From Nocardia spumae (GTDB lineage: Bacteria; Actinomycetota; Actinomycetes; Mycobacteriales; Mycobacteriaceae), in the NCBI RefSeq assembly GCF_020733635.1, contig NZ_JAJFZL010000001.1, positions 3,472,001 to 3,536,000 of the forward strand: DNA of 64,000 nt, in the 5' to 3' direction. This document shows, piece after piece, positions 5,513 to 29,324 of the stretch; position 1 is the first letter of the stretch; each line of letters starts with the position of its first letter. The notes under the pieces are model-generated. The model searched no databases and was not told the DNA's origin. It saw nothing but the letters and a program-made list of their open reading frames with translations. A program made the position numbers and the translations under genes.

Positions 5513-7312
5513 TCACCGCTTCGCGCCGACGAGCTGCTGGTAGCGCGTGTTGCGGGCCAGCAATTCGTCGTGCGGGCCACTGTCCGTGATTCGCCCGTCC
5601 TCGAGGAACACGACGGTGTCCGCTTCGCGGATCGTGGACAGCCGATGGGCGATCACGAGTAGTGCGCACTCGCGTCGCACCGCCTGGATGGTCGCGTTCA
5701 ATGCCTTCTCGGTCTCGGCGTCCAGCATCGCGGTGGGCTCGTCCAGCATCATGAGCACGGGGCGGCGAATCAACGCCCGGGCCAACGCAACGCGCTGACG
5801 TTCGCCGCCCGAGAGCAGAACACCGTGCTCACCCACGGAGGTATCGAGACCGCGGGGCAATCGCGCGACAAGATCGGCCAGTCCCGCGAGCTCTACGGTC
5901 CGGGCGAGGTCGTCCTCGGCGAGATCCGGTTGCCGGTATGTCAGATTGTCCCGAAGGCTGCCGAACAACAGTGGCGCGTTCTGTTCGAGCAGACTGATCT
6001 CCGAGCGCCATGCCCGGCGCGGACGATCGGCGGACAACCGGCCGTCCAGCAGGATATCGCCGGCATCCGGCTCATAGAACCTGCTGACCAGCGAGAAGAC
6101 GGTGGACTTTCCCGCGCCCGAATGTCCGACCAATGCGACGTGCCCGCGAGGTGGAACCGAGAAGGTAACTCCCTTCAGTATCTCCCGGTCACCGTAGGAG
6201 AAGTGCACTCCGCGGAACTCGAGCGCGAGATTCGCGTTGTCGGCGGGTGACCGGCGTGCCGACATCGCTTGCTGCCCACTATGTTCGCTTCGATCGGCGG
6301 TGATGTCGTCGACATCCTCGGCAGGCAATCGAAGCGTGCCCTCGATGCGGTTGAGCGCGCCGAGGGCCTGTTGGAGGCCGACCGAGCCGTTGAAGAGATC
6401 TCCGACCGGTACGAGCAGATTCAGCGCGAGAAGCATCATGGTCACCAGACTGCTCAGTTCCATCTGGTCGTTCGCCACCCGGATGCCGCCGACCAGCAGG
6501 GAAACCACGAACGATCCGGTCACCGCCAGATGTGTCGCCGGATTTCCCCATGCCTTGAGCCGAGCGGCGCGAACACCGGCGGCGAACGCCGCCCCGGCCA
6601 ACTCGGCCAAGCGCTCGTGCTCACTGTGCTCGGCGTTGTTCGCCTTCACCGTGCGTACTCCGTTGAGCGCGCGTTCGATATCGGCGGACAGCGCGCCGAC
6701 GCTCTCCTGCAAGCGATTCGAGGCCATCTCGATCCTCGTCATCACCAGCAACATCGCGGCGGCGGCGGCGCCGACGGTGACGATGACGACCGAGAACAGC
6801 AGCCAATCGAGATAGATCATCACCGCGACGGTCCCGATCAGCGTGATCATCCCTGTCAGCAACTGGACCAGGCTGGACGCGACGGCATTACGGACGACCG
6901 TCGAGTCGACAGTGACACGGGAGATCAGGTCCCCGACCCGCAGGGACTCGAGAGTGGGTATCCGCAATCCGAGCAGATGCCCGGTCAAGCGGTTCCGCAC
7001 GGACAGCAGCAGGGACTCACCGGACCGCTCGAGGATGTAGAGCCCGCTGGTGTCGACCACGGCGTACAGCAGATAGGACCCCACCAACGCCGCGAGCGAC
7101 CATCCGATCGCCGTCCCGGAGGCCGCGTTCCGGACGACCTGACCGGCCAGCAGCGGTTGCACCAGGGTCAATCCGGTGCCGAGGAGTAGCAGCGTCGTAG
7201 CCAGAATCAGCGAATTGCGCTGTGGTGCGATGAGTCTGAGCAGAGCTCCGGCTCGGCGCGGCCACGAATCGCTGTGCCCGGTGTCAGCGCTGCTGTCGGT
7301 CGACATCTCCAC
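5513..7312 (-). CDS. ABC exporter, fused membrane and ATPase domains
   Basis: A 599-residue half-transporter of the peptide/lipid/drug exporter type. Residues about 25-320 hold six predicted membrane segments with the usual cytoplasmic loops (SRVTVDSTVVR). The C-terminal ATPase has Walker A GHSGAGKS, Q-loop LLEQNAPL, signature LSGGERQ, Walker B LMMLDEP and the H-loop AHRLST. No peptidase C39 domain is present. Directly upstream on the same strand are remnants of a lasso-peptide cyclase and B2 peptidase, and the B2 remnant overlaps this start by 29 bases, so the gene is probably the D (export/immunity) gene of that cluster. It is the only intact member. The start is GTG 7312; an ATG two codons later is possible. 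Confidence 0.92.
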   Translation of the reverse strand: MEMSTDSSADTGHSDSWPRRAGALLRLIAPQRNSLILATTLLLLGTGLTLVQPLLAGQVVRNAASGTAIGWSLAALVGSYLLYAVVDTSGLYILERSGESLLLSVRNRLTGHLLGLRIPTLESLRVGDLISRVTVDSTVVRNAVASSLVQLLTGMITLIGTVAVMIYLDWLLFSVVIVTVGAAAAAMLLVMTRIEMASNRLQESVGALSADIERALNGVRTVKANNAEHSEHERLAELAGAAFAAGVRAARLKAWGNPATHLAVTGSFVVSLLVGGIRVANDQMELSSLVTMMLLALNLLVPVGDLFNGSVGLQQALGALNRIEGTLRLPAEDVDDITADRSEHSGQQAMSARRSPADNANLALEFRGVHFSYGDREILKGVTFSVPPRGHVALVGHSGAGKSTVFSLVSRFYEPDAGDILLDGRLSADRPRRAWRSEISLLEQNAPLLFGSLRDNLTYRQPDLAEDDLARTVELAGLADLVARLPRGLDTSVGEHGVLLSGGERQRVALARALIRRPVLMMLDEPTAMLDAETEKALNATIQAVRRECALLVIAHRLSTIREADTVVFLEDGRITDSGPHDELLARNTRYQQLVGAKR

Positions 7313-26356: not shown

Positions 26357-26599
26357 ATGAGTGACAGGCCCGCACAGGGGAAGTCGATGTTGGGTAAGGG
26401 CACGCGCGTGACGGGCAAATCGCGCGACCGGCTACAGACCCAGCTCAAGAAGCAATACGAGGCGGGCGCCAGTATCCGATCACTGGCGCGTGAGACCGGC
26501 CGTTCGTATGGGTTCATCCACAACGTTCTGGTGGAGTCGCATGTGCAGCTCCGCAGTCGTGGTGGTGCCAACCGTCGTAAGGCGATCAGTAAGGCCTGA
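26357..26599 (+). CDS. small helix-turn-helix DNA-binding protein (Rv1473A-like)
   Basis: An 80-residue basic protein. A central HTH is visible: YEAGASIRSLARETGRSYGF followed by IHNVLVESHV, which resembles resolvase/Lsr2-tail or transposase-type HTHs where a degenerate repeat binds DNA. Both termini are Lys/Arg-rich. GGAGG lies a few bases before the ATG. It follows the ABC-F gene as in M. tuberculosis (Rv1473A). It probably acts as a small transcription factor or nucleoid-associated protein; targets are unknown. A hairpin before it implies its own promoter. Confidence 0.8.
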   Translation: MSDRPAQGKSMLGKGTRVTGKSRDRLQTQLKKQYEAGASIRSLARETGRSYGFIHNVLVESHVQLRSRGGANRRKAISKA

Positions 26600-27881: not shown

Positions 27882-28841
27882 TCAGTCGCTGATCATCGCC
27901 TCGCCGTGGACGAGAAACCGGGCCAGGCTGGCGAAGATCGGCAGACCCGTCTTGATCTCCAGGTAGGCGAACTGGCCCTGCGGATTCACCTCGAGGAAGT
28001 AGTACTCACCGTCGAGTCCGAGACGGAGGTCGAGGACACCGAATCCCAGACCGAGCGCGCCCATCAGTGTGGTCAGCGCCTTGCTCACCGACGCGGGCAG
28101 TCGTTCGGGAGTGAACGCGACCGAGGTGTCCAATCGTGAATCCACCCAGCCCGCACCGGCTTGCGAATCGATCCGGACCGCCCATTCGACCCCATCGATC
28201 CACACCACCCGGAGATCGCATTCGGCCTCGACATAGTCCTGGAAGGTGGTCGGCGCCGAACGGATCGTGCCCAGTCGCGCGATATCGTCGACCCCCACGA
28301 TCCGGGTCTCGGTGAATTCGGCTCGCCCGGTGCCGGTGCGCTTGTAGACGACCGAACCGCCGCGGGAGTCGACGAAACTCCGGGCTTCGTCGGGATCGTT
28401 GGTGATCAGGGTCTCCGGAATCGCGAAACCGCAGCGCCGCGCGGTGTCGAGTTGCACGATCTTGCGGGTGGCGGTGCGGTCGGCGCCGGGATCGTTGACC
28501 CAGACGGCGGGAATGGACCACAGCAGGCCCTGCAGGAAACCGTCGCATTCGGCCTGGCGGAAATCGTCGTCACCGTTGTGGAAGCCACCGGGCACCCGGC
28601 ATCGGTGGGGCCGCCGCCACCAGACCGAGGTCACCTCGTCGAGACCGGGCAGATGCGACAGTGATCGAGCGGTGCCCGCTCGGTCGAGCCGGAAACTGCC
28701 GCTCTCATGCGGAAAGTCACGCATATCGAGAAGAATCGGACTGAGCCGGTAGCTCTTTCGCAGTGTCGAGGCCATCGCATCGGCGTGCAGATCGCCGCTT
28801 TCCGAGACGATCAGTACGGCACCCGGCGAACGGGCACTCAT
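27882..28841 (-). CDS. ATP-grasp ligase of the graspetide/MvdC-TgmB type
   Basis: A 319-residue ATP-grasp enzyme. The N-terminal pre-grasp part has ILLDMRDFPHES and WWRRP, as in microviridin-type ligases; the middle carries NDPGADRTATRKIVQL and VYKRTGTGR (nucleotide-binding Lys); the C-terminal motif LEVNPQGQF followed by AYLEIKTGLPI is the family hallmark with metal-binding Glu/Asn. Enzymes of this type make ester or amide crosslinks between side chains of a ribosomal precursor peptide. It lies 12 bases downstream of the 156-residue gene on the same strand, with GAGGG before its ATG, so the two form an operon. No separate transporter or protease is adjacent. Confidence 0.85.
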   Translation of the reverse strand: MSARSPGAVLIVSESGDLHADAMASTLRKSYRLSPILLDMRDFPHESGSFRLDRAGTARSLSHLPGLDEVTSVWWRRPHRCRVPGGFHNGDDDFRQAECDGFLQGLLWSIPAVWVNDPGADRTATRKIVQLDTARRCGFAIPETLITNDPDEARSFVDSRGGSVVYKRTGTGRAEFTETRIVGVDDIARLGTIRSAPTTFQDYVEAECDLRVVWIDGVEWAVRIDSQAGAGWVDSRLDTSVAFTPERLPASVSKALTTLMGALGLGFGVLDLRLGLDGEYYFLEVNPQGQFAYLEIKTGLPIFASLARFLVHGEAMISD

Positions 28842-28853
28842 CGCGGCTGTCCC

Positions 28854-29324
28854 TCAGTCCAGGCTGTCGCAGGCCGTACCGTCGTCACCGATACCTCGGC
28901 TGTTCGTCTGGCTGTAGCTCACGGTCGCTCCGACGACGCCGGGCGCGCGCCGGAGCCGCAGCCGGCGAGCCCACTGGTCGGTGAGCCGATCCAGTGCGTC
29001 ATCATCGACCGCGGGGCTGGGCTGCGGCGGGAGGGTCAACGGGCGCTCGGTCAGCTGAATCCGGCGGCGCTGCGTGAAATCGGCTGCGGCGCCGGGGCGT
29101 ATCCACACCAGGACCGCTCGTTCGGCGGTGCCGGGATCCGCGCCCGGGGATCCGTCGCGGAGTTGGAGGACATCGTCACGGTCGAGGGTCCAGGTACCCT
29201 CGGCGACCCGAACACTGATGGTGTCGCGGGATTCGGCGACCAGGCTTCCGGACAGCGGCGGTGCCGATCGCTGGGGTTGTGGGCGCGGCCGGGTGTCGGG
29301 CACCTGGCGGCGGGCATGGCTCAT
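28854..29324 (-). CDS. 156-residue candidate precursor/partner of the ATP-grasp ligase
   Basis: A 156-residue protein ending in a hydroxyl- and acid-rich tail. Residues 1-25 are Arg/Pro/Gln-rich; 27-100 look like a small beta domain (TISVRVAEGTWTLDRDDV, AVLVWIRPG); 105-125 is an amphipathic helix (DDDALDRLTDQWARRLRLRR). The tail from 132 has Thr134, Ser136, Ser138, Thr140, Ser142, then Asp147, Asp148, Thr150, Cys152, Asp153, Ser154 and a terminal Asp156. Hydroxyl residues followed by Asp residues are what graspetide ligases link. Known precursors are mostly shorter, so it may instead be a substrate protein with a folded domain. No signal peptide. No family recognised. Confidence 0.6.
   Translation of the reverse strand: MSHARRQVPDTRPRPQPQRSAPPLSGSLVAESRDTISVRVAEGTWTLDRDDVLQLRDGSPGADPGTAERAVLVWIRPGAAADFTQRRRIQLTERPLTLPPQPSPAVDDDALDRLTDQWARRLRLRRAPGVVGATVSYSQTNSRGIGDDGTACDSLD

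Follow-up and report, generated by a model that had tools for sequence, protein, structure and literature searches.

A probable graspetide-type gene pair conserved across Nocardia: an ATP-grasp ligase and a precursor-like protein with a predicted folded leader

Graspetides are mostly treated as peptide natural products that vary. In actinobacteria, the graspetides associated with TIGR04187 ligases go by the names TgmA/TgmB. According to one study, graspetide synthetases phosphorylate a carboxylate, which is then attacked by a side-chain nucleophile (PMC13097080). A large graspetide survey restricts candidate precursors to 150 aa or less and reports a Phhx(1,2)h leader motif in about half of graspetide precursors, so that this motif is not strictly defining (PMC8939145). 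For Nocardia, a survey of 263 genomes lists RiPP cluster types without graspetides, and neither microviridin nor ATP-grasp occurs in its main text. In our literature search, graspetide with Nocardia, or Nocardia with ATP-grasp and RiPP, co-occurred in one paper only, in unrelated passages; an earlier listing of the present family among the numbered graspetide groups may exist, supplementary tables and most subscription papers lying outside that search.

The window considered here is a stretch of 64,000 nucleotides from Nocardia spumae, whose genome assembly (G000) comprises 7.07 Mb in 5 contigs. It carries two minus-strand genes (Table 1), which the initial annotation had placed 12 bases apart and read as a possible unusual graspetide operon; the spacer does occupy positions 28842-28853. 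On the evidence set out below, the pair very probably constitutes a two-gene graspetide-type system, in which the 156-aa protein would be the substrate and the ligase would join Asp residues of its tail to tail Ser/Thr residues. The system is notable for its conservation throughout the genus, for its predicted folded leader, and for the change of ligase residue Asn286 wherever the precursor is gone.

Table 1. Features of the gene pair, with positions in the window.
Feature	Positions	Strand	Basis
156-aa precursor-like protein	28854..29324	-	ORF; stop codon 28854-28856; profile match in 136/150 Nocardia genomes
Predicted beta domain, six strands, residues 24-84	29073..29255	-	AlphaFold2; block means (ten residues each) 70-96 over 21-90
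Predicted helix, residues 108-121	28962..29003	-	AlphaFold2; Leu111 and Trp118 in 136/136
GG-like site, residues 131-132 (Val-Gly in the window copy), adjoining the core N-terminally	28929..28934	-	Gly132 in 117/136
Predicted core, residues 133-156 (ATVSYSQTNSRGIGDDGTACDSLD)	28857..28928	-	Conservation pattern; disordered in the AlphaFold2 model
MvdC/TgmB-type ATP-grasp ligase, 319 aa	27882..28841	-	TIGR04187, TIGR04185 and TIGR04184 scores; PDB 5ig8
EVNP motif of the ligase (Glu284, Asn286)	27981..27992	-	Asn286 in 136/136 ligases with precursor; Asp/Glu in 10/10 without

Both ligase motifs named at the outset, LEVNPQGQF and EIKTGLPI, are found in the 319-aa ORF. Against the NCBIfam graspetide ligase models, the protein scores 211.2 bits with TIGR04187 (GRASP_SAV_5884), 160 with TIGR04185 and 123 with TIGR04184, all below the cut-offs, so that membership of TIGR04187 (curated cut-off 350) is not reached. 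The Pfam MvdD match is weak (13 bits). Six PDB matches include solved graspetide ligases, the best being 5ig8 (E 4.5e-32). Taken with these structures, the sub-cut-off scores of 123-211 bits place the protein among ATP-grasp enzymes of the graspetide-synthetase type, and by these comparisons it is a divergent graspetide-type enzyme. The ATP-grasp superfamily also contains RimK, and a RimK-like tailing reaction would add amino acids to the acidic C-terminus or to tail Asp residues without making internal rings. This reading could draw on a 49-bit match of the ligase to PHROG 2599, an S6 glutaminyl transferase by annotation, and on the invariance of the C-terminal Asp156. However, the RimK-family model TIGR00768 gives only 18 bits (curated cut-off 143.4) against 123-211 for the graspetide ligase models, and tailing would leave the conserved hydroxyls at 134, 136, 140 and 142 unexplained; we regard it as highly improbable.

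The precursor has no Pfam or NCBIfam match. Its N-terminal part had been described as folded-looking, and the AlphaFold2 model computed from 44 sequences (mean pLDDT 70.7, pTM 0.45) agrees: six strands at residues 24-84 and a helix at 108-121 are predicted, with most of residues 134-156 below 50. The layout of folded domain, helix and disordered tail is therefore a prediction. A profile of the beta domain only, searched against proteins of 0.55-1.75 times the query length, matched four small proteins; the same core tail is present in all four, and both of the named ones are from Nocardia. An occurrence of the beta domain outside the precursor family was rejected, every match in this length range carrying the core tail. 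Likewise, an apparent relative outside Nocardia, in an alphaproteobacterial MAG (L200, 31%), lies antisense to a 509-codon ORF and was set aside as a chance match. The Phhx(1,2)h motif, sought in the first 40 residues from a script-chosen start, is mostly missing: 47 of 135 sequences have it if Ala is counted as hydrophobic, and 5 of 135 if it is not. In one locus (L017, about 1100-1350; also P0018, 220 aa), the precursor carries a GTEGSATHGNDVL-like tandem-repeat insertion between beta domain and helix, which suggests that the linker tolerates long inserts.

The tail of the window copy, GATVSYSQTNSRGIGDDGTACDSLD, has Ser/Thr at 134, 136, 138, 140 and 142, and Asp at 147, 148, 153 and 156, as first described. 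Across the family it is the most conserved of three regions, with a mean column entropy of 0.79 bits (133-156) as compared with 1.20 (30-98) and 1.32 (99-127). Over the 121 full-length tails, the ten positions at which the family consensus has Ser, Thr or Asp average 0.04 bits, Ser and Thr being merged as well as Asp and Glu, whereas the remaining 14 of residues 133-156 average 1.32. There is no overlap between the two sets (U=0, p=2e-5, a p-value that is only a guide since the sequences are related). Among the 136 precursors, Asp153 and Asp156 are invariant, and Asp148 is replaced once, by Glu. Position 136 always bears a hydroxyl (Thr 125, Ser 11), Thr134 is found in 134 (Ala in 2) and Ser154 in 135. 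Thr140 and Ser/Thr142 (Ser 109, Thr 12) are found in 121; the remaining 15 have short cores, GATFTF[R/H]DGINCDSLD, devoid of this stretch. Ser138 of the window copy is no family feature: position 138 is Cys in 82 sequences, Ser in 16, Ala in 16, a gap in 15, Val in 4 and another residue in 3. Ser146, present in 118 of 136 precursors, is Gly in the window copy. Cys152 was rejected as an essential ring partner, since 9 of the 136 precursors have Ser at this position and 3 have Ala.

Substitution rates depend on the distance considered. In 47 close pairs, dN/dS is lowest in the tail (0.13, vs 0.21 in the beta domain); at larger distances the tail (0.36-0.44) does not lie below the beta domain (0.27-0.38), and its amino-acid change is lower than that of the beta domain in two of three bins. 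Recurrence across the genus together with purifying selection rules out a chance ORF or a chance pairing.

Changes of the tail donors and of the acid at 147 tend to coincide. Of 17 tails lacking at least one donor among 134, 136, 140 and 142, 16 also lack an acid at 147, and none of the 119 tails with all four donors lacks it; L075 is the exception. This covariation, which stems from few evolutionary events, hints at ring pairing. A one-to-one pairing of donors and acids was not adopted, support for it being partial, with few events and one exception.

All 136 precursors with the C-terminal Ser/Thr/Asp core stand beside a ligase. This linkage and the conserved residue pattern support the earlier proposal that the tail is the modified core, the cross-linking being what we infer. 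In the mechanism that we favor, the beta domain and the helix would act as the leader and present the flexible C-terminal tail of 24 residues to the ligase. This enzyme would use ATP and metal ions to activate the side chains of Asp147, 148, 153 and 156, and the activated residues would be joined to the Ser/Thr hydroxyls at 134, 136, 140 and 142, giving up to four side-chain ester rings. Fewer rings would form in the short-core lineage. The chemistry, the ring connectivity, the biological role and whether the tail is cleaved or not are all at the level of what we infer.

Of 150 genomes of the genus, 146 encode the ligase. The precursor profile matches 136 of these 150, each precursor lying directly upstream of a ligase; one of them, L185 (tail end DSID), fell outside the scripted tail pattern and was added on reading. 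In 135 loci, the intergenic gap is about 1-30 bases, mostly 11-12, with the ligase start taken from the alignment. Occurrence of precursor homologues without the ligase, which would speak against the pairing, was checked and found in 0 of 136: no precursor stands alone, since the 14 genomes without precursor include all four without ligase. In 31 loci retrieved with wider flanks, the neighborhood is the same for the pair and for the ligase without precursor: acnA and a TetR gene flank one end, an HTH gene and an ABC-F gene the opposite end. Genes for a hotdog thioesterase, a MarR protein and a cupin are variably present across these loci, three of which (L037, L075, and L076) reach contig ends and miss one flank. 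Three of the genomes devoid of both genes (G089, G110, and G139) show the hotdog gene followed by HTH or MarR, with no trace of the pair; in the fourth (G054), the site was not located.

Outside the genus, the precursor seems to be missing. When the 301 genomes of the family were searched with the precursor profile, 12 candidates being scored per genome, 25 genomes matched, all from the genus of the window (one of 31 genera). Ligase matches elsewhere in the family show at most 38% identity, except for a 50-residue fragment at 44%, and those outside the genus at class level at most 40% among the matches listed. All 44 named precursor homologues of one search belong to Nocardia. In a protein-database profile search, the named ones among the best 120 of 148 matches are also from Nocardia, with one exception, labeled Streptomyces gardneri by NCBI yet bearing a truncated UniRef name starting 'No'. 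As judged from these distributions, the pair appears to be inherited vertically, restricted to the genus and kept at one conserved site.

Among eight flanking genes scanned, no peptide exporter or protease was recognized; one encodes an ABC-F ATPase. The features that had been singled out as unusual for a graspetide, namely a large folded leader (as predicted), a single core and no neighboring transporter or protease, are all upheld. The conserved flanking 80-aa HTH protein (window 26357-26599, plus strand) bears a weak resemblance, at 36.7 bits against a cut-off of 140, to the CRISPR repeat-binding model Cbp1. A PADLOC search for defense genes gave no match at E <= 1, and PHROGs gave only E 0.43 for the precursor; a defense or phage gene was therefore dismissed.

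Other ligases were encountered during these searches. A second, distant Nocardia ligase, about 30% identical, occurs in two genomes (G136 and G067), in loci L047 and L048, at about 5685-6683 and 6025-7005, respectively, in the orientation of the ligase. Ahead of it lies an ORF, about 118-138 codons long and with the end MACTTYYQTYVWTGTTLDPWGADCD, which is another candidate long-leader graspetide. Relatives from two further genera of the family (g22 and g27; L049-L054) show short candidate precursors with a GG leader ahead of the ligase, unlike the precursor of the window. In L080 (2424-3644, minus strand) and L081 (2421-3686, minus strand), which have the closest ligases outside Nocardia, the ligase comes immediately after a gene encoding an astacin-type zinc protease (PF01400, 165 and 164 bits) with C-terminal KDP-type Lys/Asp repeats, possibly a zinc protease with a cross-linked tail.

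Ten genomes (L037-L046) have kept the ligase with no profile-detectable precursor. All 146 ligases of the genus were compared at K167, D209, R211, D271, E284, N286 and E295, which we take to be active-site residues from the ATP-grasp and graspetide literature; Glu284 and Asn286 of the EVNP motif presumably bind metal. The seven residues are identical in the 136 ligases with a precursor. In the ten without, N286 has given way to Asp in nine cases and to Glu in the remaining one. Moreover, 15 to 32 of the 110 positions invariant in 135 precursor-linked ligases are altered in each of these ten, many of them within 224-243 and 286-298. The ligase tree (145 rows, without L039) requires at least two events, and the tree of flanking acnA and ABC-F DNA (28 loci, without L037) at least four on well-supported branches, with six in the best tree; long branches and recombination limit these counts, as does treating the changes as losses. 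This natural experiment supports a coupling of precursor presence and ligase Asn286, as far as sequence comparison can tell, and the joint change offers a natural test of which ligase residues serve the precursor.

The altered ligases look as if they were retained for something. Their dN/dS is 0.11-0.17 in the closest pairs and 0.26-0.39 in more distant ones, as compared with 0.08-0.20 computed for intact pairs, which suggests that part of the ligase conservation may not depend on the precursor. They are possibly pseudoenzymes with a retained role, and their persistence raises the question of a second one. This would suit a scheme in which the tail is a mere docking or recognition tag and the ligase acts on another part of the protein or on another substrate, purifying selection on precursor-less ligases in close pairs making a second ligase role conceivable. 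However, alteration of the EVNP Asn in all ten precursor-less ligases argues that catalysis needs the precursor, and the conserved tail positions are precisely the chemically relevant Ser/Thr/Asp; we consider the tag very unlikely. In L045, 12 nt separate the ligase from the end of a precursor-like ORF of 33 codons, whose N-terminus is the usual one and whose end is rich in Ser/Thr/Asp, the beta domain being absent; the ligase of this locus has lost both K167 and N286. L037 and L046 have short ORFs of 17-27 codons left at the precursor site.

If the tail is cross-linked, as we favor, its product probably serves an internal function in Nocardia, as the core shows next to no variation within the genus; such constancy at a single inherited site speaks more for an endogenous function than for a weapon. 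We rate release of the core and its retention on the folded domain as about equally likely. In one variant, quite possible though short of probable, the core is cut behind the GG-like site and freed by enzymes encoded elsewhere, to act for example as a protease inhibitor or bacteriocin. Gly132, present in 117 of 136 precursors, stands immediately ahead of the core, and two studies report that a double-glycine peptidase is typically absent from ATP-grasp loci (PMC8939145) and that microviridins and plesiocin inhibit serine proteases (PMC13097080). The near-constant core at one site genus-wide speaks against this variant, as do the flanking genes, none of the eight being recognized as an exporter, and the lack of a match to Peptidase_C39, the only protease family searched, in the genome of the window. 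A further version, which we hold to be unlikely, makes the precursor itself, and no released peptide, a housekeeping cross-linked protein with a core role in the genus, its tail being tied by the ligase into a multicyclic knob that is never removed; several lineages would have abandoned the modification and retained the ligase as a pseudoenzyme with a second, non-catalytic role.

The graspetide proposed here would appear to be a vertically inherited trait that is nearly universal in one genus and has an almost invariant core, which points to an endogenous role. As only 14 of the best 120 of 148 precursor homologues have 150 aa or less, the family would probably be missed under the length limit of the large survey (PMC8939145). 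Among described systems, the nearest ligase model (211 bits) is that of the actinobacterial GRASP_SAV_5884 graspetides; unlike these, the Nocardia precursor has about 150-170 aa and a predicted folded beta domain. Immediately upstream of the ligase, class-level relatives (L089-L091 and L095) likewise have a small precursor gene whose product is rich in Ser/Thr and Asp at its C-terminus, but these candidate precursors have about 70-90 aa and a P[WFY]G-type leader. Nearly the whole ligase, EVNP motif included, can be aligned with the microviridin ligases MdnB/MdnC and their relatives (PDB 5ig8, 5ig9, 7m4s, and 7mgv), whereas the precursor sequence is unrelated to those of microviridins and its alignment contains no motif resembling PFFARFL, the leader motif given in the survey (PMC8939145). 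Finally, corallotide and rosaritide also involve a large precursor or require an extra protein, and corallotide clusters are likewise confined to one genus; in contrast to corallotide, with its five repeats and an oxygenase, the Nocardia system has a single core, no extra enzyme, and a folded part, as predicted, fused to the core (PMC13097080).
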